Positions 42,448 to 57,983 of a stretch of DNA of 64,000 bases are shown piece after piece. The notes beneath the pieces are model-generated. The model did no database searches. It was not told the origin of the DNA and saw only the letters and a list, made by a program, of their open reading frames with translations. This DNA is from a virus. Where the stretch lies: positions 111,595-175,594 of the IMG/VR virus record IMGVR_UViG_3300023174_000052, one strand, 5' to 3'. The position numbers were made by a program, and so were the translations under genes. The first letter of the stretch is position 1. The number at the start of each line of letters is the position of its first letter.

Positions 42448-42744
42448 TTATCCTTCCTCTTCGACTTCATTTTCAATCGTTGAGAAAGTTTCTGCGACTT
42501 TTATTATCGCGTCTCTCGACAATCTCAAATCATCATGCACCCGTCTAATTTCAGGACTATCAAAAAACAAAGGTATTTCTAAAACTTTGTCGATAGATCT
42601 GATTCTTTCGTCCATGACAGCCAGACAATCTTCTATCGAATCCTGAACTCTGATTATAGTTCTTGCGAATCTATAACAATAAATTGCAAGAAATGTTGTG
42701 GAACAAATTAGTATTAAAATTATGAACCACAAAAAATATATCAC
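42448..42744 (-). CDS. Small membrane-anchored protein, 98 aa
   Basis: One N-terminal transmembrane helix (about residues 2-25, rich in Ile, Leu and Phe) is followed by a charged, helical, probably coiled-coil cytoplasmic or periplasmic part. The start is GTG 42744, overlapping the previous stop as GTGA. No family is recognised. It sits between a glycosyltransferase and the late sigma factor, so expression is late; the role is unknown. Confidence 0.65.
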   Translation of the reverse strand: MIYFLWFIILILICSTTFLAIYCYRFARTIIRVQDSIEDCLAVMDERIRSIDKVLEIPLFFDSPEIRRVHDDLRLSRDAIIKVAETFSTIENEVEEEG

Positions 42745-43892
42745 AGTAATTCCCCGATAACCGCGTCGTATAGATCGCAGACGGCATTTATCGAATATTT
42801 TTCGCGAATGATTTTTGCTAAATCATCTGCCCACTCTTTAGGCTTAGAATAAGATTCAACTGTTTTTCGCATTCTACGTTTCGCATCAGGTTCGCGAACT
42901 TGTGCCCATCGAGCGCCTTGGATGAATATTGTACCATCTATTTTTTTATCAGAAACAGGAACTAAATCATATTCCACCTTCGAAAAATGACCTTTTGATA
43001 AAAATTCGAGATGTCCTGACCAGTTCGTTGCTAAAACTGGGAGTGCGGAAGCTGCCGCATCTATAAGAGGAAGCCCGTAACCTTCGCCTCTTGTTAGTGA
43101 AATCATAGACTTGACCTTGGGGCTCTTCATTAAGCCTGCCACTTCTTTTCCAGACATATCACCATTTAACAAATAGACTTTTGGAAATTCTCCCTTTCTA
43201 ACTTCCGACAATAATTTTTGAAATAATAAGACAAGTTGTTTTCTATGAAAAATACAATTTGTCCCTAAATTTGATTTGATGATAAGACCAACATTTTTAT
43301 CACCAGCGAACTCTTCACAAAACCACTTTACCGTGTGGAAAAGATTCTTTCTATCGGAATCTAGATCCATTCCAGTAACTTGTCCGAATAACAAGAAATT
43401 AAACGAAGTAGCTACTTCGTTTAACTCTAAGGGTAGAACATCTTTGTCTATTTCGCAGTTATATGCTTCTGGTACGACTGATATTTTCGTTGTGATTCCA
43501 CCACCAAGTGTCAAAGAATCGGAAGCAAACTTAGATGGAACAATAACATGATTCATCTTATTACATGCGATCTTCCATTCTGGATTACACTTATCTGTTT
43601 CAATACCTGCAGTTATTCCAACATTAACTTTCGCTAATTCTGGATCCCATTCATTCGGTAGTTGGATTTGAAGACTTAGATCGGGTTTTTCTTCAAATGG
43701 AGTCGATCGATCCATAATTTGTCCGACTAGACCGTCCAAATCGTCTCTATCGAGAAACCATGGAGTAATACCCCAGTTTAAAATTTGACACCTTACGTCA
43801 TGTCCACGAGATAGTGCCCATTTAAAGACTTGTCGAGCGTGTTCACCATAACCAGACTTAGAAAGAACAGGTCCTCTTACAATAACTTTCAT
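42741..43892 (-). CDS. Glycosyltransferase, GT-B fold (GT4-like), 383 aa
   Basis: The protein begins with a nucleotide-sugar transferase-type GPVLSKSGYGEHARQ segment and has the GT-B C-terminal region with SLTRGEGYGLPLIDAAASALPVLATNWSGHLEFL (about 265-300), where the conserved acidic residue of the EX7E-type motif appears as EG...D. It would transfer a sugar from an activated donor, perhaps to a lipid, protein or glycan. ATG 43892 overlaps the stop of the previous transferase as ATGA. Donor and acceptor cannot be read from sequence. Confidence 0.82.
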   Translation of the reverse strand: MKVIVRGPVLSKSGYGEHARQVFKWALSRGHDVRCQILNWGITPWFLDRDDLDGLVGQIMDRSTPFEEKPDLSLQIQLPNEWDPELAKVNVGITAGIETDKCNPEWKIACNKMNHVIVPSKFASDSLTLGGGITTKISVVPEAYNCEIDKDVLPLELNEVATSFNFLLFGQVTGMDLDSDRKNLFHTVKWFCEEFAGDKNVGLIIKSNLGTNCIFHRKQLVLLFQKLLSEVRKGEFPKVYLLNGDMSGKEVAGLMKSPKVKSMISLTRGEGYGLPLIDAAASALPVLATNWSGHLEFLSKGHFSKVEYDLVPVSDKKIDGTIFIQGARWAQVREPDAKRRMRKTVESYSKPKEWADDLAKIIREKYSINAVCDLYDAVIGELL

Positions 43893-45133
43893 AGCGCATT
43901 AACCTCGAAATTCTTGCGATCCTTTCGCCAATTCTCAATGAGATCACCGAGCGTCTTGTCCCATGAATCAATAACTTTCTGATATCCAAACTCGCTTAGA
44001 GCATATTCTCGAGCCTTTGCACCTAGACGTTTTCTTCCATCTTTGCCAAGCTCGTAAAGTTTCATAATACCTTTCGCCGTAGTCTCAACCGTGACATAAT
44101 CTTCGTAAATGTATGGAACGCCCTGTGATCCAACAAGAGTCTTTAATTCGACAGGAAGCGCTGCGCCGTTCTCTTCGCCAGTGTAAGCATTAACGACTTG
44201 TCTAGTTAGACCACCAGTTTTCACTGCGACGATTGGATTCCCAACATTCATAGCTTCGAGAGTCGCAAGACCGAAACCTTCTGCGTATGAAATATTGATA
44301 CAAAAATCACTAACATTATGAATAACGTTCATTTTATCAAATTCGACGCGTTCTTTACTAAAGGCTACATTTTGTTCTATGTCGAGATTTCTTGCAACTT
44401 CTACAAGATTAGGACCCTCTTGATCGAAAGGATCGGTATGCATGATTAGAGTAGCTTTTCTGTGACCATGTTTTTGTTCAAGTTCGTCTAGGAAAAGTTT
44501 CCATGCCCATATAACATCTGAAGGTCGTTTTCTTCTAGCATTTCTATTGATCCACAGTCCGACAAAATGATCTGCTCTATGTGTACCGAGAAGAAGTATT
44601 TTATTCCTCAATTTATCCTGTTCAGACATAGGATAAAACATACCTGGTGGTAATGAATGAGGAATAAAATTAGTCTTTTCCGGAAATAACTTGTGGCAAA
44701 ATTCGTATGTCAAATATGAATGACAATTAATGAGATCGGTCGCCTCGTACATCGGACTATTAAACATGGGAGTAGGATAATTATCCCAAACGTGCCACCA
44801 TGCTATTGGACATATTTGATGTACTTCGTCTTCCATCTCAAAAAGCCAAGTAAAAAATCTTGGGTCGGTGAAGATCAACATAGCATCTGGCTTTTCGGTT
44901 GCGAGAGCTTCTCTAATCATCGCTCTGTTGCCGAATCCATCGATCGGCTTAATAATAAAATCTTCATTGACAACGATCGTACGATAATCGGCGTGTTTAA
45001 TCGCCGCGCCGAACTGTCTAAATGACCATCCACCTTTCTGTATAAGACCATTAATTAAGTGTCTTGTTTGATTTCCAACGCCCGATGGAGAAAGAGCGTG
45101 ATCAGAAAGAACCAAAACTTTTCTCTTCTTCAA
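43889..45133 (-). CDS. Glycosyltransferase family 4-like, 414 aa
   Basis: A GT-B glycosyltransferase. The N-terminal part has LSDHALSPSGVGNQTRHL (9-26), the typical glycine-rich entry of family 4, and the C-terminal part has NISYAEGFGLATLEAMNVG (about 285-303) with the E-x7-E motif. Start is TTG 45133 after GAGG, supporting the non-ATG start. It is coupled to the next transferase gene. The 61-base gap before it contains no clear promoter or terminator. Donor and acceptor unknown. Confidence 0.84.
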   Translation of the reverse strand: MKKRKVLVLSDHALSPSGVGNQTRHLINGLIQKGGWSFRQFGAAIKHADYRTIVVNEDFIIKPIDGFGNRAMIREALATEKPDAMLIFTDPRFFTWLFEMEDEVHQICPIAWWHVWDNYPTPMFNSPMYEATDLINCHSYLTYEFCHKLFPEKTNFIPHSLPPGMFYPMSEQDKLRNKILLLGTHRADHFVGLWINRNARRKRPSDVIWAWKLFLDELEQKHGHRKATLIMHTDPFDQEGPNLVEVARNLDIEQNVAFSKERVEFDKMNVIHNVSDFCINISYAEGFGLATLEAMNVGNPIVAVKTGGLTRQVVNAYTGEENGAALPVELKTLVGSQGVPYIYEDYVTVETTAKGIMKLYELGKDGRKRLGAKAREYALSEFGYQKVIDSWDKTLGDLIENWRKDRKNFEVNAL

Positions 45134-45194
45134 ATTAACCTCGCTACAATATCATCCGGCGGATTAATGAAGATGTTAACGGTCTTTAATATAA

Positions 45195-45980
45195 TTATCT
45201 TACACATTGTCCTGATTTCGCAAAATCGCAATATTCGCAATTATGTTTATTTTTTGGAAAAAATCCACGTTTAACCGTATTAATCATGCTGGACACGAGT
45301 TTATTTGCCTTCTCTTGAACCTTGGGTCCTGCCGAAAATGCGACTAAATCGATAGACTTACCAGATTTCGCCCCTTTTTTAAGCACGACAAAAGCGGTAC
45401 CAACATCTGCGGAAGACAATTCGAATTTCTTCATGACGTGCCATTTATAGAGGATCAACTGTGCCTGTGTATTGAAATCTTCTTTTTTATCTCGACGCCA
45501 TCCATAGGCTGGACCTGTCTTCCAGTCGATGATTAGAAGCTTTTCCTTACCTCGTTTGTCTTTAAGCTTAAGAATCGCATCGATGAAACCTTTAAATTTA
45601 ATATCATGATTATCGATAGATTCCATAAGCGCATGTTCTGCATCGAGTGTCTCCCATTCCGGAAAATTTTCATCCAAAAATGTAGGAACATCATTAATCA
45701 CAGTTTCTGCCCAAGAACACCATTTTTCTACGTCAGGGAAACCTTTTTCTTGCCAAATCCTACGAATTTCTGACGTGCAAAGTTCTACGTCTACTTCTCG
45801 AGTCTTAAGATATTTTTCGCAAGACGAATGGACGGCAGTACCAAAATAAAGGTGTTCTGATTCTACATCTGCTTTGACTTTATCGATATAGGTCAGCTTA
45901 TGTTTCCACGGACACTCTGCCCAAGTTCGAACTTCAGAAAAAGAAATATGAGCTTTACCTGTTGGAAACGTATTAGACAA
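45195..45980 (-). CDS. PD-(D/E)XK nuclease with iron-sulphur cysteines (RecB/Cas4-like)
   Basis: The 261-residue product has all motifs of this nuclease class: FGTAVH (46-51), FIDAI with Asp134, IDWKTG with Asp152 and Lys154, and TQAQLILY (171-178). Four cysteines, Cys23 in ECPW and Cys248, Cys251 and Cys259 at the C-terminus, match the 4Fe-4S arrangement of Cas4 and AddB-type nucleases. It would degrade or process DNA ends. Start is TTG 45980 after GGGGTG. It is out of place inside a sugar cassette; other DNA genes lie at 8-13 kb. Confidence 0.87.
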   Translation of the reverse strand: MSNTFPTGKAHISFSEVRTWAECPWKHKLTYIDKVKADVESEHLYFGTAVHSSCEKYLKTREVDVELCTSEIRRIWQEKGFPDVEKWCSWAETVINDVPTFLDENFPEWETLDAEHALMESIDNHDIKFKGFIDAILKLKDKRGKEKLLIIDWKTGPAYGWRRDKKEDFNTQAQLILYKWHVMKKFELSSADVGTAFVVLKKGAKSGKSIDLVAFSAGPKVQEKANKLVSSMINTVKRGFFPKNKHNCEYCDFAKSGQCVR

Positions 45981-46025
45981 TCATCACCCCACTCTAAACA
46001 ATATTGCGTGATGATTCGATAATTT

Positions 46026-46982
46026 TTAATCTTCTACATTAGAAATAGCTCTACCCTTTAAGCTTTTCCAGTCTTGTCTTGGTCTAACTTCAAGATTTTT
46101 TTCCCATACGCCCTTAAGAACTTTTGGATCTACGTTATTTTTTTCTAAAAGATAAATTAAAGCATTAATATCCTTTGGAAAACAACTTCCGCCGAAACCC
46201 ATGCTTTGTTCGCCAGTATCATCTGACGGCATTGGACCAGGAACTTGCCAGTGAGAATTACCCAGTCTTTTATCAAGAGTCGCTAATTCTATAATCGAAT
46301 TATAACTAATGTCATAACCAGCTTCGAAAAGAGCCTTACACCCTTGATACATTTCATTTGCAAAAGAAACTTTCGTAGCCAGAAAACAATTTGCTACATA
46401 TTTTACCATCTCGGCGTTTGTAGAAGACGTCTCGAATATCGGGACAGTTGGAAATGAGGACTTAAATACGGCCGTCACAAATTTAGAACTTTCTATTGGA
46501 CCACCGATGATGATTCTATCTTGGTTTCTCATATCATCGATAGCATTTGCTTCTGTTAAAAATTCTGGATTGAATACTACACTAATCGCAGATTTTTCGT
46601 ATTTTTTATTCCACGTTTCTGTAGTTCCTGGTGGTACTGTAGATTTTACTATGGCGATTCTTTGTTTGGAACTATTAATATTTTCGGATAAAACTTGTAA
46701 TACAGACTCGACAATTGAAGTATCACATGATCCATCTAAATTCATCGGAGTCGGCAAACAAATGAAATAAATCCCAGAAAATTCTTCAATAGATTCGCAA
46801 CACTCTATAAAAATCTCTAAGTTTTCGGGTGTAATAACATTTTCAAATTTGAACTGTTTAATTCCACCTTTCGAATTTTTTCCCGCTTTATCGTATGTAT
46901 AGACCTTATTTCCACGTTCGGACAAAACTGTGGTTAGACTTCCACCTACAAATCCTTGACCAATTACAGCTACGGTATGCAA
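46026..46982 (-). CDS. UDP-sugar 6-dehydrogenase (UDP-glucose dehydrogenase-like), short form
   Basis: It would oxidise a UDP-hexose to the uronate with NAD. Seen are GQGFVG (8-13), VKSTVPPGT (112-120), NPEFLTE (138-144), ATKVSFANE (202-210) and the active-site GFGGSCFPKD (262-271) with Cys267. The GFGGSC form is that of UDP-glucose rather than UDP-ManNAc dehydrogenases. At 318 aa it lacks the C-terminal UDP-binding domain of the usual 390-450-residue enzymes, so it is either a compact functional form or impaired. Start is TTG 46982 after AGGTG. Product likely feeds transferases of the cassette. Confidence 0.82.
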   Translation of the reverse strand: MHTVAVIGQGFVGGSLTTVLSERGNKVYTYDKAGKNSKGGIKQFKFENVITPENLEIFIECCESIEEFSGIYFICLPTPMNLDGSCDTSIVESVLQVLSENINSSKQRIAIVKSTVPPGTTETWNKKYEKSAISVVFNPEFLTEANAIDDMRNQDRIIIGGPIESSKFVTAVFKSSFPTVPIFETSSTNAEMVKYVANCFLATKVSFANEMYQGCKALFEAGYDISYNSIIELATLDKRLGNSHWQVPGPMPSDDTGEQSMGFGGSCFPKDINALIYLLEKNNVDPKVLKGVWEKNLEVRPRQDWKSLKGRAISNVED

Positions 46983-46998
46983 ATAAACACCTAATTTA

Positions 46999-47952
46999 TT
47001 ACCATTTAAAGTTTTTTCTATAATACTCTACAAGTTCTCGTATTTCTTCATCGAAAATCTTTTTAGGTCTCCAACCGATCGCCTTTAATTTTTCATCGTT
47101 AAGAGCGTATCTAACGTCTTGTCCTTGTCTTACATAAGATAAATCGAGATAATCTTCATAAGATAATGAATCAGATTTAAAATAATTAGAAATTATTTTT
47201 TCAACTGTTAATCTATTAGATTGTTCACAGTTTCCTGCGATGTTAAAAATTTCATTTTTAACGTTTGAATCGATAATAGAAATAACGGCTTCTGCAGTAT
47301 CATCTGCGTGTAACCAATTTCTTACGGGTTTCCCTTCATTGTGTAATCTAATCTTTTTATTACGCTGTAATAACTTAACACTTAACGGTATTAATTTTTC
47401 AGGATATTGTCCCGTACCATAATTATTCGTCGGTCTCAATATTACATAATCGATATTATACGTTCTATGCCATGCTAAAACTAACATATCGGCCGCGGCC
47501 TTAGATGCCGAATATGGATTACTAGGTTTCAATGAATCACTCTCTACGTGTTGACCGTCGACTATGTCTCCATACACTTCATCGGTACTGAAATGTATAA
47601 AAATCGGTCGACTGGCTACATTCGTAGGCTTGCTCTTAATTAGATCTAATAAATTTTGAACGCCAATGATGTTCGTTTTAATGAATGAGTTAGAATTTAT
47701 TATGCTATTTCCAACATGCGTTTCTGCTGCTACGTTGATAACGTAATCACAATCAGGTAAATAATCTAAATCACATATATCTTTCTTTAAGAAAGTAAAA
47801 TTTTCATATTGTGAAAATGTATCTAGAAAATTCTCGTTGCTGGCGTAGGTTTGAGAATCGACTCCAAGTACCCTCCAACCTTTATCTAAGCACTTTCTGG
47901 TAATATGTGAACCGATTAATCCCAAACATCCTGTTATGATTACTATCTTCAT
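46999..47952 (-). CDS. NDP-sugar 4,6-dehydratase (RmlB-like SDR)
   Basis: An extended short-chain dehydrogenase (317 aa). Seen are GCLGLIG (8-14), the STDEVYG motif (122-128) typical of dTDP-glucose 4,6-dehydratase, YSASK (147-151) and RPTNNYGTGQYPEKLIPL-type substrate region (about 173-190). It would make the 4-keto-6-deoxy sugar that the next two genes (aminotransferase and acetyltransferase) could convert to an N-acetylated amino sugar. dTDP is the likely nucleotide from the motif class, but UDP is possible. ATG 47952; weak ribosome binding site. Confidence 0.85.
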   Translation of the reverse strand: MKIVIITGCLGLIGSHITRKCLDKGWRVLGVDSQTYASNENFLDTFSQYENFTFLKKDICDLDYLPDCDYVINVAAETHVGNSIINSNSFIKTNIIGVQNLLDLIKSKPTNVASRPIFIHFSTDEVYGDIVDGQHVESDSLKPSNPYSASKAAADMLVLAWHRTYNIDYVILRPTNNYGTGQYPEKLIPLSVKLLQRNKKIRLHNEGKPVRNWLHADDTAEAVISIIDSNVKNEIFNIAGNCEQSNRLTVEKIISNYFKSDSLSYEDYLDLSYVRQGQDVRYALNDEKLKAIGWRPKKIFDEEIRELVEYYRKNFKW

Positions 47953-47956
47953 GTTT

Positions 47957-48571
47957 TTACTTGACTGTTTCGCAATTTTTAAATAATGGAAACTCTCTTA
48001 GGTCTCGATATTGAGGCTCTTCAGGTAGATCTTCGGCATGTTGAGGATAGTTTTGCATTAGCATTAGTCCTCGAGCGGCTTGTTCTGGGGTCATGTAAGC
48101 ATTATGGCCATTAATATCGATTTCATCTTCATGATACATCACTTCGCCGCGGCCTTCGTACCTAGCCTTTCTAAACCAGTCGCGTGCTTCTTCGCTATTA
48201 GTTAGAATCATTCCACCCTTTCCAATTTTTAAATGCTTTTTGATATGGAAAGAAAGACACATATAAGAGTCTTGAACATACATATTAGATGTTAATCTTT
48301 TCGCAGCGTCATAGATTGGGTACGGTTTTAGTTGATAAACACCCTTCCAACTTACTTCTTCAAACTTTACAGTTCCGCCAGCATGGATTATTGACTGTGG
48401 TACAGAAAGATAAGTCCTTGCAGGAATAGTAACTTCTTTAACGCCTAAGTATTCACAACACAATAAAATTGCGTCGGTACAATTGTCAGTTGAAACAGCA
48501 TATTTTGAACCACAATAATGCGCCATTTCTTCTTCGAACATTTTGATGATTTTGTAAGGATTATGTAGCAT
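47957..48571 (-). CDS. Compact DegT/DnrJ/EryC1-type sugar aminotransferase
   Basis: The product (204 aa) has landmarks of PLP-dependent sugar aminotransferases: GSKYAVSTDNCTDAI (21-35), TIPARTYLSVP (48-58), the PLP-ring aspartate in IYDAAKR (86-92) and SFHIKKHLKIGKGG (107-120) where Lys112 would bind PLP. It is far shorter than the 360-400 residues of the family: about 60 residues in the middle and much of the C-terminal domain are missing. No stop or frameshift interrupts it, so it appears to be a deliberately compact form. It lies between the dehydratase and the acetyltransferase, as expected for a 4-amino sugar pathway. Confidence 0.78.
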   Translation of the reverse strand: MLHNPYKIIKMFEEEMAHYCGSKYAVSTDNCTDAILLCCEYLGVKEVTIPARTYLSVPQSIIHAGGTVKFEEVSWKGVYQLKPYPIYDAAKRLTSNMYVQDSYMCLSFHIKKHLKIGKGGMILTNSEEARDWFRKARYEGRGEVMYHEDEIDINGHNAYMTPEQAARGLMLMQNYPQHAEDLPEEPQYRDLREFPLFKNCETVK

Positions 48572-48958
48572 TTATTCTCTTTCCAATAGGTAGTATTTAA
48601 TTTTAAAACCAGACGATTGAAATAATTTTAAACTGGCCTCGTTTGTTATTTTAATTTTTGCCAGGGCATTTGGAAATTTATTTTTGATCTGTTCTAACAT
48701 AAATTTTCCAACGCCTAATTTTTGATAGTCTGGATGGGTTGCGACTCGTATATCATCATTGATAACGCCGACGTATCCTGCAGGTTTATCATCGATTAGA
48801 CAGATGAAGAAGCAATCGCTATATTTCTTCATGTATTCTTTTTGTTGTTCTTCTGTGATGTAAGAAGTTTCTATAAATCCTGGGATAACTCTTGGGTCGT
48901 TTCTTAATTGTCTAATAAATTCATGATATTCGGGTTTATCAGCTTGTACTAATAGCAT
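48572..48958 (-). CDS. GNAT-family N-acetyltransferase
   Basis: The 128-residue product shows the GNAT acetyl-CoA site as HPDYQKLGVGKFMLEQI (about 75-91) and the usual beta4/beta5 pattern (IDDKPAGYVGVI, then AKIKITN). ATG 48958 follows GGTGAT and the gene abuts the aminotransferase. In cassettes of this kind the GNAT enzyme acetylates the 4-amino group made by a DegT enzyme. Substrate is inferred from neighbours. Confidence 0.83.
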   Translation of the reverse strand: MLLVQADKPEYHEFIRQLRNDPRVIPGFIETSYITEEQQKEYMKKYSDCFFICLIDDKPAGYVGVINDDIRVATHPDYQKLGVGKFMLEQIKNKFPNALAKIKITNEASLKLFQSSGFKIKYYLLERE

Positions 48959-48961
48959 GTA

Positions 48962-49750
48962 TCACCAAATGCATTCTTTTTTTGAATATTCATCGTGTTG
49001 ATTTAACCAATATCCCCGTAAATATCCTCTCGATCCGATCCACCCATTCATACCCAGTAAAGGATTAAGTGTGCTACCGATATCGACGTACGTGTTGTCG
49101 GGAAATTCTTTGTACAACTCGTATATTAGAATATTACTCAGACTAGCCGCGGAAAATAAAAATAAATGATCTTTTACATCATTTTCTTTGACCCACACTT
49201 TCATCTCGTCTACAAGTCCAATATTTCTAATGTGACAGTTATTACCTACTCTAAAATCTTTTACTAAATTTAACGGAAATTTAGACAAGTCTGCGATTTC
49301 ATTACACACGTATACGACCTTATAATCTTTCATCGCAGGTAAAGCTTGCTCTACGAATAGTGGATAATTCGAATTTATAAAAACATTAGACCAAGTCAAA
49401 TGTGCTTCATCTTTTGATAGATGGTTATCAAATTGCCATGCGAACCACTCTTCGCCAATGCAACACCTACAACATATTCCCTTATAGTAACTGTCTTGTT
49501 TATGTTCAAAACACTCTATTAACTTCTTTCTAAAATCTTGTTGTGTAGAAGGGTCAAAAACCTTATGTTCTTCGGCGCCCCAAAATCCACCATGAGCCTG
49601 GCCGTGCACTATCGCCATATTTTCCGAGATAACGATTAGTTGATTTTTAATAACCATCAACTCGCCATCTGAGAATCTCGAAAATGCAAAATGCTTTTTA
49701 TCTTTTAATAATTGAACAATATGAAAAAAATCACCCTTAAACGTTTTCAT
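48962..49750 (-). CDS. GT-D-like glycosyltransferase (DUF1792-type)
   Basis: The motif FSRFSDGE (23-30) near the N-terminus, a central KVVYVCNEI strand and a C-terminal YVDIGSTLNPLLG segment match the GT-D type transferases that act late in glycan and glycoprotein assembly (as in Streptococcus protein glycosylation). The family match is by motif and is not certain. The product (262 aa) has no signal peptide or membrane segment. It overlaps the next upstream gene by 14 bases. Confidence 0.62.
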   Translation of the reverse strand: MKTFKGDFFHIVQLLKDKKHFAFSRFSDGELMVIKNQLIVISENMAIVHGQAHGGFWGAEEHKVFDPSTQQDFRKKLIECFEHKQDSYYKGICCRCCIGEEWFAWQFDNHLSKDEAHLTWSNVFINSNYPLFVEQALPAMKDYKVVYVCNEIADLSKFPLNLVKDFRVGNNCHIRNIGLVDEMKVWVKENDVKDHLFLFSAASLSNILIYELYKEFPDNTYVDIGSTLNPLLGMNGWIGSRGYLRGYWLNQHDEYSKKECIW

Positions 49751-50183
49751 TTCTATACCTTATTGGAAAATCAGTACAAACTCCGAGACACGTAGACACA
49801 TCATCATTAAAAATTTCTGGCATTACTGCTATGCTATTCTCTATGGGTTGTTTCCCAGGATAAGCCCAAATATGACCTTTCGATGTCAAAGTAACATCGT
49901 CATTTTGATGCCAGAAATAATTGAAGTCATTAGTTTTATTGAAATGAATTATAGCTTCAATATTCTTACAATGTATCCATAATTTGTCTTTTCTTGCGCG
50001 CAACCAAGCAATATCGATTTGATATTGTGGTTCATCGTGACCTAAAAATATTTCTAATTTATCATTTATCCATACATCGACTTCGACTTCAAAATGAAGC
50101 AAAATGGCCTCGTCGATATAATCCGGACTATTCTCGAGATTCGATTTTTTTCCATTAATATTTCCACGATGAGAAATTATCAT
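49737..50183 (-). CDS. Compact glycerophosphodiester phosphodiesterase-like protein
   Basis: The N-terminus ISHRGN (3-8), with the ENSPDYIDEA stretch, a second EVEVDVW strand near residue 33 and FLGHDEPQY (about 46-54), follows the GDPD active-site pattern (HRG, E-x-D, and a later His). At 148 aa it is shorter than the usual 220-250, lacking part of the TIM barrel. It could act on a glycerophospho or other phosphodiester group in the glycan, or be a non-catalytic remnant. ATG 50183 overlaps the previous stop as ATGA. Confidence 0.68.
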   Translation of the reverse strand: MIISHRGNINGKKSNLENSPDYIDEAILLHFEVEVDVWINDKLEIFLGHDEPQYQIDIAWLRARKDKLWIHCKNIEAIIHFNKTNDFNYFWHQNDDVTLTSKGHIWAYPGKQPIENSIAVMPEIFNDDVSTCLGVCTDFPIRYRNENV

Positions 50184-50848
50184 AATTTTTCCAATTGATA
50201 ATTACCCGTATATCCTGTAGAAATATGTACACCATTGTGATTTTTAACGTAGATAAAATCAAATATTTTATTTATAGAAATTTTATTTTCTTTTAAAAAA
50301 TTCAATAATGAGACTTCATTTGAAGTATCGTTTTTCGAATGTCTATCAATTTCATAATATTCTAATACAAATCGGGATATTACATTCATCGTCGCACGAT
50401 CACCGACATAAAATTCATCATTTATCCATTCTTGTTCATTCCATTCGTTTAGATGAAAAGACTTAGCAGATGAATATATCGAATTTTTATTTAAATTATC
50501 GAATTCTAAATTGAGACTAGAACTAAAAAATAGATCGCATCTATTTTTAATGTAGAAATCATAATCATCAGGTGTTTGTTCTATGACACTTTTTAGATTC
50601 CAGAATTGCCAAAACCCAGATTGACCTGCGTTATTGTCACGATTTTGATACCATTTTGTTTTTTCTATTTCTATTTTGGGAGTAGTAAAAATTTCTTTTA
50701 TTTTTAAATCACTAGATTTCCAATCTTGATAATAATGTTCGAAACAAGAAACAAACAAATCGTATTGTCCAAAATAATGATTATAGTTTTTAACTATATT
50801 TTTATTACCTCTATAAGGTCCGGACATTATGACCGCTGCATTCTTCAA
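50180..50848 (-). CDS. Putative glycosyltransferase with R-x-D motif, 222 aa
   Basis: Pattern of a small GT-A-like transferase seen in capsule and phage cassettes: an N-terminal VIMSGPYRG strand and turn, YDLFVSCFEHYY, then a conserved YDFYIKNRCDLFF (about 96-108) with an Arg-x-Asp that may bind metal or donor. The gene at 52910-53653 has the same arrangement (YDIVVKARFDLG). Start TTG 50848 overlaps the stop of the HAD-nucleotidyltransferase as TTGA. The family is inferred, not proven. Confidence 0.58.
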   Translation of the reverse strand: MKNAAVIMSGPYRGNKNIVKNYNHYFGQYDLFVSCFEHYYQDWKSSDLKIKEIFTTPKIEIEKTKWYQNRDNNAGQSGFWQFWNLKSVIEQTPDDYDFYIKNRCDLFFSSSLNLEFDNLNKNSIYSSAKSFHLNEWNEQEWINDEFYVGDRATMNVISRFVLEYYEIDRHSKNDTSNEVSLLNFLKENKISINKIFDFIYVKNHNGVHISTGYTGNYQLEKL

Positions 50849-52227
50849 TTTTTAATTCCAAAATTTTCTATGTAATAATTTAAATCCTCAGGTGTACCAA
50901 GTCCCCACATACCAGACACATTAAAAGTCTTTATCTTTTTACCGTCTGCTATAGCCTGATTAAACACTGGACATACGTAGAATTCGTTATTGACCCTAAC
51001 ATTCTGTTCTATCATTTTCTCGGCGTATTTAACAAAGTCACTACCATTTTTCCAGTAATAATATCCCACAGTAGCTATATCACTAATAGGATTCTTCTCT
51101 GCTACTTCCGTAACATATCCTAAATCATCGATCTTTGCAAATGACCACTTTGGATGTGTAGCCTTAAACGTCACAATTCCACCGTCGACGTTCATTTCCT
51201 GCATTTTATACATAAATTCATTCGAATCCCATTCTACGAACTGATCTGAATTTGCGAAAAATAAAGGCAAATCGTTATCGATATATTCCTTGGCTAGTAG
51301 CGCAGTACACGCAGCACCCTCGGTCAAACCTTCGGTTTCTACGATTTTACAATCGGGAGTAATTAGATTTAGTAAAGTATCTAAGTTATATTTTTCACGG
51401 TGCGACTTTTGTACAACATAAATGTAGTTCGCATCTAGATTAAGATTATCTACTACGACTTGTATCATCGGTTTTCCATTAACTTCAATTAGTGGCTTTG
51501 GAAATGTGTAACCGGCCTTTTCGAAACGAGATCCTGCGCCGGCCATTGGAATTAATACGTTCATTTTTTTGTCTTTCCACTTAGGAGAAGTTAACATATT
51601 CGCACCCTTTAATTCTAGAATTTTTTTAGAAATATTATCTATTGTAACATCTTTATGATTATTAACACGTAATATATTCGATTTGCTTCTATGAGCTGCA
51701 AGTAAACCATGCGGAGAATCTTCTACAATCAGTGTCTCTTCCGGCAATACACCCAAGATTGACATTGCTTGCCAGTATATCTCTGGGTGTGGTTTACTGT
51801 TTTTTACGTCTTCATTAGATAAAATCAAGTCCATGTATTCTATTAGTCCTAGTTTCGATAGAACTACCAGTACTGTTTTTCTTATGGAGTTTGAACAACA
51901 CGCTATTTTATAATTGTTAGAATTCAACCATTTAAATAATTCGATTAGCTGGACGTTTTCTTTTAGATTCGATATCGATTCTAGCGTTAGTTTTTGCTTG
52001 ATTTCCCAGATTTTTTTATGCGTATCTATGGGCAAATTTTTATTTTTTGTTAGCATCTCTAACTTTTGGTTAGTCTTTAACCCATCGTAAAGTGATAGAT
52101 GCTCATTCATAGTAATAATAAATTTTTCGCCGGCAGCTAACTTAATCGCCTCGTTCAACGTAGAATAGTGTATTTCCTTTGCTTCGACCAAGACTCCATC
52201 TAGATCAAATGCTACTAACTTAATCAA
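50845..52227 (-). CDS. HAD phosphatase - sugar nucleotidyltransferase fusion, 460 aa
   Basis: Residues 1-205 form a HAD-superfamily hydrolase like beta-phosphoglucomutase: FDLDGVL (7-13), CSNS (111-114), KPHPEIY (145-151) and VEDSPHG (168-174). From 222 a nucleotidyltransferase follows: IPMAGAGSRF (226-235), PKPLIEVNGKPMI (243-255), later FANSDQF and a VGYYYW region. Together they could act on a sugar phosphate and its nucleotide-activated form, placing two pathway steps on one chain. The start is TTG 52227 after AGAGGGA, overlapping the stop of the previous gene. Which sugar is used cannot be read. Confidence 0.82.
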   Translation of the reverse strand: MIKLVAFDLDGVLVEAKEIHYSTLNEAIKLAAGEKFIITMNEHLSLYDGLKTNQKLEMLTKNKNLPIDTHKKIWEIKQKLTLESISNLKENVQLIELFKWLNSNNYKIACCSNSIRKTVLVVLSKLGLIEYMDLILSNEDVKNSKPHPEIYWQAMSILGVLPEETLIVEDSPHGLLAAHRSKSNILRVNNHKDVTIDNISKKILELKGANMLTSPKWKDKKMNVLIPMAGAGSRFEKAGYTFPKPLIEVNGKPMIQVVVDNLNLDANYIYVVQKSHREKYNLDTLLNLITPDCKIVETEGLTEGAACTALLAKEYIDNDLPLFFANSDQFVEWDSNEFMYKMQEMNVDGGIVTFKATHPKWSFAKIDDLGYVTEVAEKNPISDIATVGYYYWKNGSDFVKYAEKMIEQNVRVNNEFYVCPVFNQAIADGKKIKTFNVSGMWGLGTPEDLNYYIENFGIKN

Positions 52228-52919
52228 GCTATCCCTCTTAGTTTTTCATCTATTCCACAAGAAAATAAAGTTTCTTCTAACTCTTTTTTATATTCTGAAA
52301 AGTTCCATCTTCCCTTTACTATAGCGGTCGCGATGTATGGAAAAACTTCGCTATCATAGTGATATATTCCTCTTTTTTTCTCATTACCTAGAATCGAAAC
52401 AAATTCATTTCCAAAATTTTGAATCGAACTCTCAAATTCCCAGATATTTTTAGGACCGTATTTATCCAACAAATCGACTAAATGCGATTTAGAAATTATC
52501 GTAGGTTGTATAGAAAATTTTGAATATTCAGTGATGTATAAAGTATTATCAAATTTCGAAACGTAACGATTTGAACCGACAGGTATTAACTTTATCGATT
52601 TAGCGAAATTATTTTCGACGTGCGTGAAATATCTTTCGATGTGTTCATATTTTGGAGTATCGTAAAGAAACATGTCTTCATGCATGAATAGAAAGAAATC
52701 TATATTCACTTTCTCAAGACAAGATTTCAATCGTTCAGTATAACACAAGGATTCATCGTAAATAACCTGTTCACAATCTATCTCGAGATTTTCACTCAAC
52801 TTATTCACGAATAAAGTAATTTTATAGTTATTCAAATACTTTTTTATACTAACAAATAACGGTTTCCACACGTCACTATAATCTGTATGACTATAAATTA
52901 TTAAATTTCTCATTCCCAT
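52224..52919 (-). CDS. Putative glycosyltransferase-like protein, 231 aa
   Basis: An N-terminal strand-turn (LIIYSHTDYSDVW), then a FFLFMHEDMFLYD segment near residue 75 with a His-Glu-Asp acidic cluster, as found in GT-A-like enzymes of sugar cassettes. No named family. ATG 52919 or ATG 52913 (ATGA overlap with the previous stop) are both possible. Role inferred from neighbours. Confidence 0.55.
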   Translation of the reverse strand: MGMRNLIIYSHTDYSDVWKPLFVSIKKYLNNYKITLFVNKLSENLEIDCEQVIYDESLCYTERLKSCLEKVNIDFFLFMHEDMFLYDTPKYEHIERYFTHVENNFAKSIKLIPVGSNRYVSKFDNTLYITEYSKFSIQPTIISKSHLVDLLDKYGPKNIWEFESSIQNFGNEFVSILGNEKKRGIYHYDSEVFPYIATAIVKGRWNFSEYKKELEETLFSCGIDEKLRGIA

Positions 52920-53653
52920 GTAGTCTCGAGATTAATCCTATTTTCCCATAAACCATTGTTTAGCATCCAGTACTTGTATAAAGCGATTGCGTTTGATAGA
53001 TCGCCAGGATTTCCTTCAATCGACATTGCGAATTTATGAAAATCACCACCAATATGCAAATTTGTAACTACAAAATCAAAAAGACCAGTAAAGTTTTTCA
53101 TAGTTTTATGATCGCCATAAAACCACATGTCAGCTGGACCCATACGAAAATGTTGCCAATTCGCATTATATAACTTGTTCGGTTCTATATTTGTTTTAAA
53201 ATTAATGCATTGTACAGGATATGGATTTTGTCTACCAGGCCCTGACGTCCCTCTATTAATCCTTCCCAGATCGAATCTTGCTTTAACGACTATGTCGTAA
53301 TCATAATTTTGTTGATACGCCAACTTCATAGTCTCAGTAACGCTGTATAGGTGAGATATAACGTTACCAATCGGTCTTGGGCAATTTTGTAGTTTATCTA
53401 AATTTCTTTCTTTAATAAATGAAGAAAAATCTATTTGTTCCTCAAACACTGAGGCTTTAGGACGATATAGTTCAAGAATTTCATCTTTCTTTTCTTTTTC
53501 CCAACTATGAATAAAAGTATCGACTTGAACATCTTTTCTATCTAAGATGTTCTTTCTAATGTGTTCATATCCATCGATCCCTTTAGAAGATGAGTCAGTC
53601 AAAGAATCGAATAGACCATGAATACAAAGCGCGACTTTCTTTTTATTTTCCAA
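52910..53653 (-). CDS. Putative glycosyltransferase with R-x-D motif, 247 aa
   Basis: It has KKVALCIHGLF at the start, FIHSWEKEK (about 47-55), and YDIVVKARFDLG near residue 120, matching by arrangement the gene at 50180-50848, so the two are probably distant paralogues. A conserved-looking region GPADMWFYGD follows near 172. Start is TTG 53653 after AAAGGAAC. No signal peptide. The transferase assignment rests on pattern and context. Confidence 0.6.
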   Translation of the reverse strand: MENKKKVALCIHGLFDSLTDSSSKGIDGYEHIRKNILDRKDVQVDTFIHSWEKEKKDEILELYRPKASVFEEQIDFSSFIKERNLDKLQNCPRPIGNVISHLYSVTETMKLAYQQNYDYDIVVKARFDLGRINRGTSGPGRQNPYPVQCINFKTNIEPNKLYNANWQHFRMGPADMWFYGDHKTMKNFTGLFDFVVTNLHIGGDFHKFAMSIEGNPGDLSNAIALYKYWMLNNGLWENRINLETTWE

Positions 53654-54319
53654 CTACTTCGTTCCTTTGATATAGTAAGAAGGAAGATTAGTAAAATAAT
53701 CTATACCTGTCAAACATTCGATATTCTTAAATCCAATTTTTTCAAAATCGTCTATTAGAAATTGCGGATTTTCTACCCTTGAATTTTTGTATTCGACGCA
53801 ATCTTCGTGATAAGGAGCAGACACGGTTAAATCCATATAATGCAAACTAGCAAGACCACCAACTGTTAAAGAACGATAAATGTCTTTCAAAATCGAAAGT
53901 CTAATGCTGTAGTTCGAGATATGCTGGAATACGATGTGCGACATTATAAAATCATATTCATTTTCATTAGCAGGTTGAATGCTATCGCCCGGTGATTCCC
54001 ACGTATTTACTTTCGAAGAATCATAAAAAGTACTTACCCATTCTTTTGCAAACTTAGCATTTTGACCTGATATGTCGCACCCATCAACACGATTCCAATC
54101 CGCCAAGTCTAAAAGATTCTTTATATTTCTACCACAACCACAACCGAAATCAAGTGCGTTTTTATTCTTCCAACGATCTCGATTTTGCTTTACTTCTCGT
54201 AACAATAAATTCCAGTACTCGGGATCTATATTGTGATGTTGATGATTCGTATCTCTCATAAGGTGATGAGTCGATTCAAATTCATTTTTATAGTTAGATA
54301 GATATTTTTCTAATTCCAT
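53654..54319 (-). CDS. SAM-dependent methyltransferase (class I)
   Basis: The SAM-binding motif I is LDFGCGCGRN (about 57-66), followed by the acidic end of strand 2 (DGCDISGQN) and a motif near YDFIMSHIVFQHIS. Length 221 aa is normal for a small methyltransferase. In a sugar cassette it probably O- or N-methylates a sugar or glycan end. ATG 54319 follows GGGGGA; it overlaps the epimerase gene by 26 bases. Confidence 0.82.
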   Translation of the reverse strand: MELEKYLSNYKNEFESTHHLMRDTNHQHHNIDPEYWNLLLREVKQNRDRWKNKNALDFGCGCGRNIKNLLDLADWNRVDGCDISGQNAKFAKEWVSTFYDSSKVNTWESPGDSIQPANENEYDFIMSHIVFQHISNYSIRLSILKDIYRSLTVGGLASLHYMDLTVSAPYHEDCVEYKNSRVENPQFLIDDFEKIGFKNIECLTGIDYFTNLPSYYIKGTK

Positions 54320-55322
54320 TTAGATCCCCCAGTATTTGTGCAATTCTAGAACACGTGTTTCCATCACCGTAAATCGTATTCTGTTCTACAACATAATTGT
54401 CTCTTATTAATAATTCTTTTTTAATTAAATCATTCGGATCATCGCACATAATCGTGTTGACGTCTATAGACTCTGGACGTTCGGTCACTTTTCTACAGAC
54501 AATTACTTTCTTGCCTAGGAAACTTGCTTCTTCCTGTATTCCGCCACTATCAGTTATCAAATAACGACAAGAAATAAATTTCTTTAAAAATTCGTCATAA
54601 GGTAATGGATCTATAATATTCAATCCAACTAATTCATCTTTATATTTTAATACGTTCGGATTGGGATGAATCGGAATGGTATAACGTATATTGGGATTAG
54701 ATAAAGCGATAGTCGATAGCGCCTTAAACCAATTTTGCATATTCGAATGATTTTCTCTGCGATGTAAAGTTACTAGAACTTCTTCGTTATAAGAACATTG
54801 ATTTTTAAATTTCACCAAATTATCGAGAACAGTATTTCCAACTACATAAATTTTTCCATTTATACTTTCGTTCAATAAATTGTTTTTATTGTTTTCTGTT
54901 GGACATAAGTGTATTGAAGTGATCCTGGAAATCAATTGTCGATATCCTTCCTCGGGATATGGATTTTCAAAATCTCTTGTCCTTAATCCGGCTTCGAGAT
55001 GTATCACAGGTATCTGTCTATGAAATGATGCCATGGCACATAATAGAGCAGTGGCAGTATCACCCTGTACTAATGTATGAGTTATACCACAAAAACAACC
55101 CTCGTCGATATCTGCGATGGTAGATAAAATTAAGTCTAATCTATTTCGACTAATACTCTGTTCTCTCAAAAAGACTGTGTGTTCGGCTTCATCTTTTACG
55201 AGATTTTCATGTTGTCTAATATTTAGTGTACTAAATTTTATATTAGATTTTTTAAATTCATCTAAAAGTGGTTTAATTTTAATGTATTCTGGTCTTGTGC
55301 CATAGCATACTAATATTTTCAT
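54294..55322 (-). CDS. wecB: UDP-N-acetylglucosamine 2-epimerase (WecB-like)
   Basis: The 342-residue product has GTRPEYIKIKPL (8-19), EAGLRT (about 110-115), the later PLPYDEFL, and ITDSGGIQEEASFLGKKV (about 255-272), all typical of the non-hydrolysing WecB/MnaA family. It would interconvert UDP-GlcNAc and UDP-ManNAc. Length is close to the usual 360-380. ATG 55322 overlaps the preceding stop as ATGA. With the dehydrogenase at 46026-46982 it could supply UDP-ManNAc and a uronate. Confidence 0.9.
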   Translation of the reverse strand: MKILVCYGTRPEYIKIKPLLDEFKKSNIKFSTLNIRQHENLVKDEAEHTVFLREQSISRNRLDLILSTIADIDEGCFCGITHTLVQGDTATALLCAMASFHRQIPVIHLEAGLRTRDFENPYPEEGYRQLISRITSIHLCPTENNKNNLLNESINGKIYVVGNTVLDNLVKFKNQCSYNEEVLVTLHRRENHSNMQNWFKALSTIALSNPNIRYTIPIHPNPNVLKYKDELVGLNIIDPLPYDEFLKKFISCRYLITDSGGIQEEASFLGKKVIVCRKVTERPESIDVNTIMCDDPNDLIKKELLIRDNYVVEQNTIYGDGNTCSRIAQILGDLNGIRKISI

Positions 55323-56065
55323 CGTGGTTCATTCACAAATTTGTAGCCGTTCTTTCTGGCATGCATTACATATTCGTTCATTGAAAGTCCACCATTCGTT
55401 TGTGGATTCGATATGGCGACCAGTTCTGTTCCATATGTCATAGCGTCTTGTGGTTGTGAACCCCACAAACTTAAATCGCTGGCGGGATGTGGAGGTACAT
55501 ACGTTTCTAATCCCATGTATTTTTGTAAAGCATATGAAAAGTGTATGTCTTCTCCGCATCTTACGAATTTGGGATCAGGTAACTCTCGCCAAAAAGCAGT
55601 TAATAACTCTCGTTCAAAGAACCACGAATGTCCGACAATGTCAGCCTTCATAATATTTTCATTCGCACTGGGCCAGCCAATTCTCTGGTATGGACCATCA
55701 TAACCTGCGTCACTATTAAAAACGATTCCAACCGTACCATAAAGTCCTCGATAGACCTTGTTATGTTCATAACAATTTTCTAACCATCGATTTCCAGGTA
55801 TCGTATCATCATCAAAAATACAAACGTATTTTGTTTTTGCCATGAGAGCATACGCAAAGCGAGCCCATACACCGAGATTCGCGTTCCCAATAAATGCAGT
55901 AGTATTAGAGATTACTTCGCTATCGAACTGGTCGGCTAAATCCGAATCATTTCGCCAAAACATAACCTCTTTTGGGGTTATTGTTTGAGCCATGACTGCG
56001 TCATATTGTTTTTTGAGTGTATGCGGTCTTTTATAGCCATTTAAAATTACGGTTACGTCTTTCAT
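55319..56065 (-). CDS. Glycosyltransferase family 2-like (GT-A fold), 248 aa
   Basis: ATG 56065 overlaps the preceding stop as ATGA and follows GGAGA; a start six codons earlier (56083) is less likely. The motif VTVILNGYKRP at the start, VMFWRNDSD and the metal-binding FDDDTIP (about 88-94) match GT2-type enzymes. It is a cytosolic transferase; donor unknown. Confidence 0.83.
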   Translation of the reverse strand: MKDVTVILNGYKRPHTLKKQYDAVMAQTITPKEVMFWRNDSDLADQFDSEVISNTTAFIGNANLGVWARFAYALMAKTKYVCIFDDDTIPGNRWLENCYEHNKVYRGLYGTVGIVFNSDAGYDGPYQRIGWPSANENIMKADIVGHSWFFERELLTAFWRELPDPKFVRCGEDIHFSYALQKYMGLETYVPPHPASDLSLWGSQPQDAMTYGTELVAISNPQTNGGLSMNEYVMHARKNGYKFVNEPR

Positions 56066-57066
56066 TTGTTGTCTCCGATCCATTTTTCTACTATTTTAGG
56101 ATGACCCATATTAACGAAAATCCAATTGTTTTTTGATTCGTCCCATGGAGCATGAAATACATGACCACCTGTTTCTGTCTCAAGACGCATAGCGTATTGT
56201 TTAATCATCGAGTCGGTAATTTCGTTCCATGTTAGTCCTGGGAAAAATGGATTATTTCTTTCGTCGCGACTTTCATTATAGAGACTCTTCCAAGAATCAT
56301 TCCAGAAAGTCCGAAAATTCCTTATCTTCCTTTCTATATTAAACCATGAATAGTGATGAACAACGGGTAATTTTGCCCAAACATCGTTTAGATAATTTTG
56401 AATTTGTGGCACAAGAGAATCGTTTTTAAGAGCCGCGAATTTAAATGCATCAAAATCGCTCGGTAAAAATCCTGCGCATGGAACTACTTTTCCAGTTTTC
56501 TCGAAAATATAATCGCAGCCATCAGTACCATGATGCGCATATAAAAGCCCATTTACATACTTTCTTAAATGCAGAGGTATACCATGCGTAATATCAGGAT
56601 CGTTTTTAGATATCCTCCATTTCCAAGGAGTAACATCTAAACGAGCTCTACCTTCACGACCCCAGTAATCTATGACTGGCAGTGCAAGTAAAACGAAATC
56701 ATTTTGTTCATGAACACTTTTGGAGATTGTTTCGATCAATGACACTTGACTTTCATGCACAATTTCATCGATATCAAACTGCCAAAGAATATCGCCCGTA
56801 CACTTTTTTCTAGATAAAGCCTTAGTATGCCCATCGTAAATACCCTTGTTTGGGGCCGACCAATTTATCGATGAGTCATGATATACTTTTAGATTCTTGT
56901 GTTCTGTAGCTAACGAATTTAGTTCATCTAGTGTCCCATCTTTTCCATCTGAGGTGTCATAGACGACTACTTCATCTGCGAATGCAAGATGACTTAATAT
57001 AGATTCAATAAATGGATATTCCATTTCCTTAGCATTTCTAGTTGTACAATATGCGCTAATTTTCAT
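56062..57066 (-). CDS. Glycosyltransferase family 2-like (GT-A fold), 334 aa
   Basis: Begins with ISAYCTTRNAKEMEYPF and has VVVYDTSDGKDGT (about 33-45) and WQFDIDEIVHES (about 94-105), the donor-side and DxD motifs of GT2 enzymes. C-terminal part is unassigned and Trp-rich, perhaps the acceptor site. ATG 57066 follows GGTGA. It lies in the run of transferases that starts the cassette. Confidence 0.8.
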   Translation of the reverse strand: MKISAYCTTRNAKEMEYPFIESILSHLAFADEVVVYDTSDGKDGTLDELNSLATEHKNLKVYHDSSINWSAPNKGIYDGHTKALSRKKCTGDILWQFDIDEIVHESQVSLIETISKSVHEQNDFVLLALPVIDYWGREGRARLDVTPWKWRISKNDPDITHGIPLHLRKYVNGLLYAHHGTDGCDYIFEKTGKVVPCAGFLPSDFDAFKFAALKNDSLVPQIQNYLNDVWAKLPVVHHYSWFNIERKIRNFRTFWNDSWKSLYNESRDERNNPFFPGLTWNEITDSMIKQYAMRLETETGGHVFHAPWDESKNNWIFVNMGHPKIVEKWIGDNK

Positions 57067-57077
57067 CGTTTCACCAC

Positions 57078-57983
57078 TTATTTTATGAATGTTAGAGTTC
57101 TATCCCAAAATACTTTTCTTCTATTATAAAGCCATGCGAGTGTATTTTGTTTATTCTTATCAATTAACCAATCCTCATCAGCGTGCTGGACTTTGTCGTT
57201 TGTTACTACTTCGCAACCTAGTAGAGTAGCTTCTGTAACCATTCTATTGGAAACGTCTGCTCCTCTGGGAAGAGTAATGAATCCTTCAGCATTTGCCATA
57301 GCTTCCAGTACTTGATCCGGGCTCATATTTTTTATTAATTTATAGCTTTTACCATTGTCCTTTAACCATTTAATGGCATCATCTGTGCCTTTAATCCAAG
57401 AATCAGAATCTAGAGTCAACCATCCACTCTTTTTTCTATCTGGCAAAGATTCCATTAATGGAACTATTTTTCTGAAGAAATTCTCATCGAAGGTCGCCGA
57501 AAGTACTTCACAATTGGCTAACCGCAGAGCTGGGAATCGATCTAAATAAACTTGCATATGTTTTTTTGAACAGAACCAGACTTGTTTGGCTTTTAGAAAG
57601 AATCTTTCTATTAATTTGCCAATCGGTTCTTTTTCGCAATTACACTTTTCTTTTCCTTCTATTTCGTGTTTCTCTATAGAACGCCACTTACAGAACTTAT
57701 AGTCGTGTTCGAAGACACTATAACTAATCCCAGAAGATATAAAATATTCTATAGCTGTTGGATGTAAGTTAGAAAAATTACCAAATACCCAGTGACAGTG
57801 CTTATTCTGTTCAACTATCGCTTCAGTAAGTTGATGACTTCTAACTATTAAAAATGGTATAGGTGCCGATTCATGCAGAGCATACATGGATAATTCAGCA
57901 CCACCGATTAGATCTTGTATTAAGAAGTCTTGAACAAAGACTAATTTAACAGCTTCTTCTACTTTAAAAGGACTAGTAAACAT
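57078..57983 (-). CDS. Putative GT-B glycosyltransferase, first gene of the cassette, 301 aa
   Basis: It resembles a short family 4 transferase: VKLVFVQDFLIQDLIGGAELSM near the start, VFEHDYKF and a CSKK region in the middle, and a C-terminal FITLPRGADVSNRMVTEATLLGCEV (about 235-260) like the nucleotide-binding end of GT-B enzymes. Cysteines near 110-120 are unusual. ATG 57983 lies 27 bases beyond the exact late promoter box and lacks a strong ribosome binding site. Confidence 0.68.
   Translation of the reverse strand: MFTSPFKVEEAVKLVFVQDFLIQDLIGGAELSMYALHESAPIPFLIVRSHQLTEAIVEQNKHCHWVFGNFSNLHPTAIEYFISSGISYSVFEHDYKFCKWRSIEKHEIEGKEKCNCEKEPIGKLIERFFLKAKQVWFCSKKHMQVYLDRFPALRLANCEVLSATFDENFFRKIVPLMESLPDRKKSGWLTLDSDSWIKGTDDAIKWLKDNGKSYKLIKNMSPDQVLEAMANAEGFITLPRGADVSNRMVTEATLLGCEVVTNDKVQHADEDWLIDKNKQNTLAWLYNRRKVFWDRTLTFIK

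Follow-up and report, generated by a model that had tools for sequence, protein, structure and literature searches.

What is made by a long row of sugar genes standing between the fiber and baseplate genes of a phage, and on what is the product placed? The question is raised by the window, the 64,000-nucleotide stretch analyzed here, which forms the last 64 kb (positions 111595–175594) of the 175,594-bp IMG/VR virus record IMGVR_UViG_3300023174_000052 (called G000). Its minus strand carries 18 tightly packed open reading frames (ORFs) at 42741–57983, where an earlier note, made from the letters of the window, had described a co-directed cassette of 16 genes for sugar-nucleotide enzymes and glycosyltransferases (GTs). 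Family matches bear out the cassette, and 10 of its ORFs clearly match families of known function (Pfam, PHROGs, or NCBIfam). We consider it somewhat better than an even bet, with a probability of about 0.56, that the region works as a cassette-exchange locus, its glycans being made by the phage with a retained core and swapped decorations, and that the acceptor is most likely a virion surface protein.

A Fixed Frame and an Exchangeable Middle

The portal, terminase, baseplate wedge, and late sigma proteins of G000 match T4-type PHROGs. Its terminase comes closest to those of Microcystis phage Mel-JY01 (43%) and of the immuto phages of Flavobacterium (40%), which makes it a deep-branching T4-like phage. 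Loci were collected by scans using the late sigma factor, a conserved GT of family GT4 (GT4b), and an exonuclease as queries. The resulting set comprised 116 IMG/VR loci, nonredundant by GT4b sequence, 99 of them in a main clade and 17 in a sister clade; three isolate lineages (Immutovirus, Mel-JY01, and RM378) were compared in addition. Hosts of the cultured relatives are Flavobacterium, Microcystis, and Rhodothermus. GT4b was present in 7 of 50,697 phage records, every one from the same T4-like lineage, and a DNA-level search of phage records with the first 8 kb of the cassette gave a sole match, of 66 bp, to the immuto GT4b. A bacterial origin or contamination of the contig was ruled out by independent contigs with the identical phage frame; it is also opposed by the lack of a GT4b relative in a scan of species genomes, limited to two short patterns that may miss distant relatives.

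The near side of the site has a constant order of exonuclease, GT4b, a second GT (GT4a), a small gene with one transmembrane (TM) segment, the late sigma factor, and the baseplate genes gp25 and gp6. Among main-clade loci whose contig covers the stretch concerned, the exonuclease lay upstream of GT4b in 80 of 80, GT4a adjoined GT4b in 97 of 97, the late sigma factor was found downstream of GT4a in 97 of 97, and gp25 was part of the frame in 89 of 90. GT4b is the best conserved frame gene, with 86–88% identity in the two nearest relatives, followed by the sigma factor (77–78%) and the exonuclease (68–70%); GT4a is 70–71% identical to its counterparts in loci L003 and L004. The small TM gene overlaps GT4a by 4 bp and adjoins the late sigma factor. 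Two loci (L122 and L184) have the exonuclease and GT4b adjoining giant fiber-like genes, with no cassette there; the GT core can therefore do without the cassette. In the cassette-free frame of L184 (G018, 5641–18681), which retains the GT pair, the fiber-like proteins abutting the exonuclease are 1,971 and 1,927 aa long. In three further loci (L049, L062, and L113), a dehydrogenase gene is inserted between the otherwise neighboring exonuclease and GT4b.

The far edge was studied in longer stretches of 20 contigs. The fiber-side end of the block is occupied by GT57 and GT2b, separate genes in the window and a single protein of about 610–640 aa in most relatives. Across 14 complete loci, the window included, GT2b lies 1.5–17 kb from the exonuclease (10.1 kb in the window). 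Beyond GT57, the relatives have fiber-like genes, one with Peptidase_S74, an endosialidase-chaperone domain. A structure model of GT57 built from 12 aligned sequences (mean predicted local distance difference test, pLDDT, of 91) has a GT-B fold. In the sister clade, a GT57 homolog comes directly after GT4a, and the order exonuclease–GT4b–GT4a–GT57 may represent the older arrangement.

Between these edges the content is replaced. In three records (G014, G030, and G031), the flanks, on the GT57–GT2b side and from the dehydrogenase/exonuclease to the baseplate side, have 83–91% DNA identity, while the middle 11–15 kb has just a few weak common patches (65–71%). Counting cassette ORFs as common at 40% identity or more, pairs of loci with at least 80% core identity had on average 47% of them in common, and several such pairs had 0–20%. 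For the pair L026 and L034, the core identity was 82%, the common cassette content 0%, and the right-flank ORFs were common in 11 of 11 cases; the window and its nearest relative, L014, have a core identity of 79% and no cassette ORFs in common (0%). The 748 cassette-side ORFs of the collection fell into 320 clusters, 215 of them singletons, and the cassette genes of the window are nearly private, with relatives in at most 15 loci each, the dehydrogenase and generic short-chain dehydrogenases/reductases (SDRs) excepted. These comparisons indicate that the variable block is swapped as a unit among close relatives. The earlier note had proposed to count absence of the cassette from related phages against its reading. 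Such a test would mislead: none of the relatives found has the same gene order, as the content is exchanged, while the site persists together with the genes that frame it.

Genes of the Cassette and Its Flanks

The features of the window at 41715–62501 are as follows.

41715–42476, minus: late sigma factor, T4 gp55-like, near-side frame (PHROG 234 late sigma factor, E = 9e-5)
42448–42744, minus: small conserved protein, 98 aa, single TM segment, between GT4a and the sigma factor
42741–43892, minus: GT4a, frame glycosyltransferase (PHROG 2170 glycosyltransferase, E = 2e-13; below the Pfam cutoff)
43889–45133, minus: GT4b, frame GT4 glycosyltransferase with EX7E motif (Pfam Glycos_transf_1, E = 7e-12)
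45195–45980, minus: PD-(D/E)XK exonuclease, bordering the variable region on the near side (Pfam PF12705, E = 5e-27; PHROG 69 exonuclease)
46026–46982, minus: short UDP-glucose-type 6-dehydrogenase (E = 9e-29; TIGR03026, 201 bits; motif GFGGSCF)
46999–47952, minus: RmlB-type dTDP-glucose 4,6-dehydratase (TIGR01181, E = 1e-87, 294 bits, cutoff 365; motifs TDEVYG and YSASK)
47957–48571, minus: short DegT/WecE-type aminotransferase (Pfam, E = 3e-22 in two stretches)
48572–48958, minus: GNAT acetyltransferase (Pfam, E = 2e-9)
48962–49750, minus: orphan without family match; searches of phage and IMG/VR sequences gave no relatives
49737–50183, minus: GDPD-like protein (PHROG 34507, E = 2e-30; 46–52% identity in Synechococcus phages, which are T4-like cyanophages)
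50180–50848, minus: orphan, putative transferase, no match
50845–52227, minus: HAD phosphatase fused to a sugar-1-phosphate nucleotidyltransferase (Pfam HAD_2, E = 1e-29; NTP_transferase, E = 5e-11)
52224–52919, minus: orphan, putative transferase, matching no family; single relative in L180, 28%
52910–53653, minus: PHROG 13607 protein of unnamed function (E = 1e-9), relatives in 5 loci
53654–54319, minus: S-adenosylmethionine methyltransferase (Pfam, E = 4e-10)
54294–55322, minus: WecB, nonhydrolyzing UDP-GlcNAc 2-epimerase (TIGR00236, 227 bits, cutoff 210)
55319–56083, minus: GT2a, GT2-like glycosyltransferase (Pfam, E = 7e-4, below cutoff)
56062–57066, minus: GT2b, conserved, fiber-side edge (below the Pfam cutoff; fused to GT57 in most relatives)
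57078–57983, minus: GT57, conserved GT-B-fold glycosyltransferase, fiber-side edge (AlphaFold model; GT-B matches in the Protein Data Bank, PDB)
58125–62501, minus: large fiber-like protein with Gly-X-Y stretches, flanking the cassette, without Pfam match

The gene list of the earlier note had left out the exonuclease, a nonsugar gene, and its statement that most genes overlap is true of 9 of the 17 junctions (by 4 to 26 bp), the others having gaps of 0–61 bp. Its family calls held for the dehydrogenase, RmlB, DegT, GNAT, methyltransferase, HAD-nucleotidyltransferase, and GDPD-like genes, and WecB passes its curated cutoff. For the GT4-like enzymes, the Pfam match supports GT4b; GT4a, below the Pfam cutoff, matches a glycosyltransferase PHROG and is conserved in relatives. 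The proposed GT2 pair is less secure, as both members fall short of Pfam cutoffs, though GT2b is conserved in relatives. No family match was obtained for the putative transferases at 50180 and 52224, and the gene at 52910 matched the unnamed PHROG only. The GT-D-like enzyme seen in the gene at 48962 likewise went unconfirmed: a single-sequence model was uninformative (pLDDT of 38), and no relatives turned up.

Several enzymes are short forms. The window dehydrogenase has no C-terminal UDP-binding domain, a form (about 277–332 aa) common in the lineage, where its cluster contains 56 cassette ORFs across 54 loci. The DegT enzyme has an internal deletion and nevertheless retains the pyridoxal phosphate lysine motif SFHIKK; short DegT forms (about 204–254 aa) recur in relatives at 39–50% identity, and a 214-aa immuto protein is annotated as WecE. 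The cassette could be read as making donors for enterobacterial common antigen (ECA) with WecB, WecC, RmlB, WecE, and WecD. The WecC part was ruled out because the dehydrogenase is of the general NDP-sugar type (the TIGR03026 match above) and scores 106 bits against UDP-glucose dehydrogenases in the PDB, compared with 54 against ManNAcA dehydrogenase. An assignment of the SDR as a UDP-glucuronate decarboxylase, on a route to UDP-xylose or arabinose for DNA, was also rejected, as the protein is of the RmlB type with a dTDP-glucose dehydratase as its best PDB match (E = 4e-66).

The late promoter that the earlier note placed ahead of the cassette was not substantiated. The candidate element, TATAAATA at 58010–58017, is less frequent in the window than chance would predict (5 occurrences, 8.9 expected), and the 140 bp preceding the GT57–GT2b gene showed no copy of it in the 8 relatives examined; it is thus neither enriched nor conserved. 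In L170, a terminator-like hairpin and T run lie upstream of position 4265, ahead of the GT57–GT2b gene, which suggests that the cassette may begin its own transcription unit.

Soluble Sugar Chemistry

When 147 representatives were scanned against Pfam, 122 families were recognized. The leading families of the blocks are epimerases/dehydratases, DegT aminotransferases, cytidylyltransferases, GT2 and GT4 transferases, and methyltransferases, with sulfotransferases being rarer. Judged from their opening residues rather than a family test, some clusters resemble sialic-acid synthase and UDP-galactopyranose mutase. Carbamoyltransferases were found in three contigs, at distances from GT4b consistent with membership in the cassette.

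By hydropathy, none of the 748 cassette-side ORFs had two or more TM segments and six had one. The same measure identified multispan proteins in Escherichia coli, 2 of 10 in rfb and 4 of 12 in rff, and as a positive control counted 7 segments in WecA, 5 in WzxE, 9 in WzyE, 9 in RfbX, and 6 in WbbH. Among the 748 ORFs there was no sign of a membrane-bound initiating transferase, flippase, polymerase, or exporter. The absence of multispan proteins implies that assembly of the glycan most likely takes place in the cytosol, with a soluble molecule as acceptor. The earlier note had spoken of a complete-looking set, an impression that is apt for the rich soluble chemistry and not for the polysaccharide pathway, which is incomplete.

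A Proposed Phage-Made Glycan on the Virion and Its Rivals

We propose that the conserved transferases would act in the cytosol, attaching a common core sugar or short chain to a soluble acceptor that is itself conserved, most likely a protein on the virion surface, and that the exchangeable enzymes would supply rare activated sugars and the transferases extending or capping the chain. In the window, the products would plausibly be UDP-GlcA, UDP-ManNAc, a dTDP-amino-6-deoxysugar, and methyl or acetyl decorations. Every phage type would show its own glycan, and one recombination between the conserved edges would change it. When virion proteins, DNA, and host intermediates were weighed as acceptors, virion proteins fit best because of the position between fiber and baseplate genes, the combination of conserved and exchangeable transferases, and the lack of export. 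The large fiber-like protein at 58125–62501 is a possible acceptor. Tentatively, and with a little less than even odds, the lineage may have serotypes, the virion glycan having a lineage-wide core and an outer part set by the exchangeable block. The earlier note was correct in seeing a dedicated glycan-making cassette between fiber-like and baseplate genes, and the glycosylation of virion proteins that it suggested is the reading favored here; its other suggestion, alteration of host glycans, is less likely in view of the missing membrane enzymes of export, polymerization, and lipid priming.

Several points weigh against a glycan on the virion. Both glycan and acceptor are deduced from genes. 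The constant neighbor, an exonuclease, fits a role in DNA as well, and the location of the GT pair among replication genes in RM378 and Mel-JY01 suits such a role equally. At the level of fold, GT57 is similar to T4 DNA alpha-glucosyltransferase as well, though this is a match generic to GT-B enzymes. The missing export steps might in principle come from lipid-linked pathways of the host, and the species-genome scan may have overlooked distant relatives of GT4b. The clearest case of swapping, in G014, G030, and G031, belongs to one clade, and the far edge is established for some of the phages only: in 7 extended loci, GT2b was not reached within about 17–19 kb.

A role in DNA hypermodification would have the GT pair glycosylate modified bases and the cassette vary the DNA-borne sugar against host nucleases. 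Besides the exonuclease within the frame and the replication-gene setting of the isolates, this is supported by a cytosine-type hydroxymethylase in G000 (PF00303; best PDB match CMP 5-hydroxymethylase; PCT and Asp at the 147/177 positions). That enzyme, however, is paired with a carbamoyltransferase about 31–35 kb into the record, in a cluster more than 115 kb from the GT cassette; carbamoylation is a known alternative way of capping 5-hydroxymethylcytosine, and together the two activities make 5-carbamoyloxymethylcytosine (PMC8670742). Furthermore, all 30 records searched contain GT4b and 29 of them, many being fragments but the complete RM378 and Mel-JY01 included, have no PF00303 protein, and the single record that does, immuto, has a canonical Asn-type ThyA. 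The conserved GT pair is therefore apparently independent of hydroxymethylpyrimidines, and we regard the DNA explanation as rather unlikely. Tet_JBP was not found in the records searched, in a search that had no working positive control and hence is not evidence. Judging by the title of a 2024 paper by Pyle et al. (cited in PMC12619734), virus GTs reportedly glycosylate DNA with diverse glycans, which also speaks for the DNA explanation.

The cassette might alternatively remodel the host surface, adding phage-specific sugars to lipopolysaccharide or capsule intermediates and so blocking superinfection or freeing progeny. Its sugar-nucleotide and GT content does resemble bacterial O-antigen loci, soluble GTs could work on the cytosolic side of lipid-linked intermediates, and such a function has been proposed for the islands of pelagimyophages (PMC7029224). 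Nevertheless, the lack of any multispan ORF and of candidates for the initiating transferase, flippase, polymerase, and exporter argues against it, as do the adjacency of the frame to late sigma and baseplate genes and the retention of phage-specific GTs despite very different hosts (Flavobacterium, Microcystis, and Rhodothermus); we consider it unlikely. Finally, a recombination-prone site could gather sugar genes as unselected passengers without joint function. The high turnover, the many singletons, and one locus with no cassette are in line with such an explanation, but the operonic packing, the intact active-site motifs, the concentration on soluble sugar chemistry, and the conservation of the edge GTs over deep divergence make it very improbable.

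Comparison with Known Systems

Hypervariable sugar-gene islands in T4-like phages are already known. The host recognition cluster of pelagimyophages, which are marine T4-like phages, resembles the present site in being hypervariable, lying in the structural region of the genome, and containing tail fibers, glycosyltransferases, and deoxysugar genes; the cassette site likewise is a hypervariable, GT-bearing island adjacent to tail-fiber genes. The pelagimyophage cluster differs in lying between VrlC and gp14, in its average length of 44.6 kb, in a divergence called gradual rather than complete replacement, and in its proposed target, the host O-chain (PMC7029224). The site studied here extends from fiber-like genes to exonuclease–GT4b–GT4a–late sigma and has conserved GT edges, block replacement, and no membrane enzymes.

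Also known are clusters of roughly 10–13 sugar genes in a row in the cyanophages S-CAM9 and DSL-LC03, and for T4-like phages the statement of the earlier note that a few such genes are usual does not hold. These clusters have the same GDPD-like gene beside HAD and nucleotidyltransferase genes, whereas their neighbors are photosynthesis and other accessory genes; Mel-JY01 was the only cyanophage record in which GT4b or GT4a was detected. The GDPD-like and HAD-nucleotidyltransferase genes (49737–52227 in the window) are near each other also in L040, L086, L129, and Synechococcus phages, and form a traveling submodule.

The closest worked-out parallel, as a resemblance and not as proof, is the glycosylation of chlorovirus capsid proteins, which takes place in the cytoplasm by mostly soluble virus enzymes and yields a common core with virus-specific decorations (PMC5408694). 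The two systems are alike in their soluble GTs and sugar-nucleotide enzymes (here by the TM scan) and, at the gene level, in their conserved core GTs and variable decorating enzymes. The best solved sequence relative of GT4b is the chlorovirus protein B736L (3OY2, E = 6e-7), itself without known function. Chloroviruses, in contrast, are eukaryotic viruses with scattered GT genes, and their glycan and acceptor are proven, while those of the present phages are deduced.

Bacterial rfb and rff loci similarly gather sugar-nucleotide and GT genes into one operon, in a set that is exchangeable or complex, and bacterial polysaccharide loci have, by analogy, conserved flanks and an exchangeable middle, although the flanks here are phage genes. 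With the ECA enzymes, RmlB and WecB are homologous, and DegT and GNAT belong to the same superfamilies; unlike rfb and rff, the cassette has no equivalents of WecA/WbaP, Wzx, Wzy, and Wzz, and its dehydrogenase is of the UDP-glucose type.

Among the isolates, Immutovirus and Mel-JY01 have a PD-(D/E)XK gene followed by GT4b, GT4a, and further sugar genes, and RM378 has another exonuclease-like gene followed by GT4b. Their identity is about 24–32%, the annotations show neither late sigma nor baseplate genes alongside, and in Immutovirus and Mel-JY01 the sugar genes lie downstream of GT4a and not upstream of the exonuclease. The moraphage core genome contains four putative GT groups (PMC12619734).

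As far as the open-licence literature was searched, the fixed frame with GT edges conserved across the lineage, the block replacement, and the soluble-only content are new. Phage sugar genes are usually listed singly as auxiliary and explained as host-surface modification; here, one conserved site in a lineage with cultured relatives on Flavobacterium, Microcystis, and Rhodothermus carries an exchangeable glycan program without export parts. If the product is indeed on the virion, phage sugar coats would evolve like bacterial O-antigens, with a bearing on adsorption, neutralization, and the interpretation of viral metagenomes. The cultured relatives allow direct testing.

Candidate DNA-Modification Genes Outside the Window

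The hydroxymethylase of G000 is part of a gene group at about 30.1–36.3 kb of the record (L009, 11095–17308) that contains the hydroxymethylase, carbamoyltransferase, ATP-grasp, P-loop kinase, and NDP-sugar SDR genes and is a candidate 5-carbamoyloxymethylcytosine cluster. A dCMP deaminase gene lies nearby, and G000 also has a separate ThyX. The GT-pair carrier L166 (immuto) has, at about 30–37 kb, genes annotated for 7-deazaguanine DNA modification (DpdA, QueD, QueE, QueF, and FolE).

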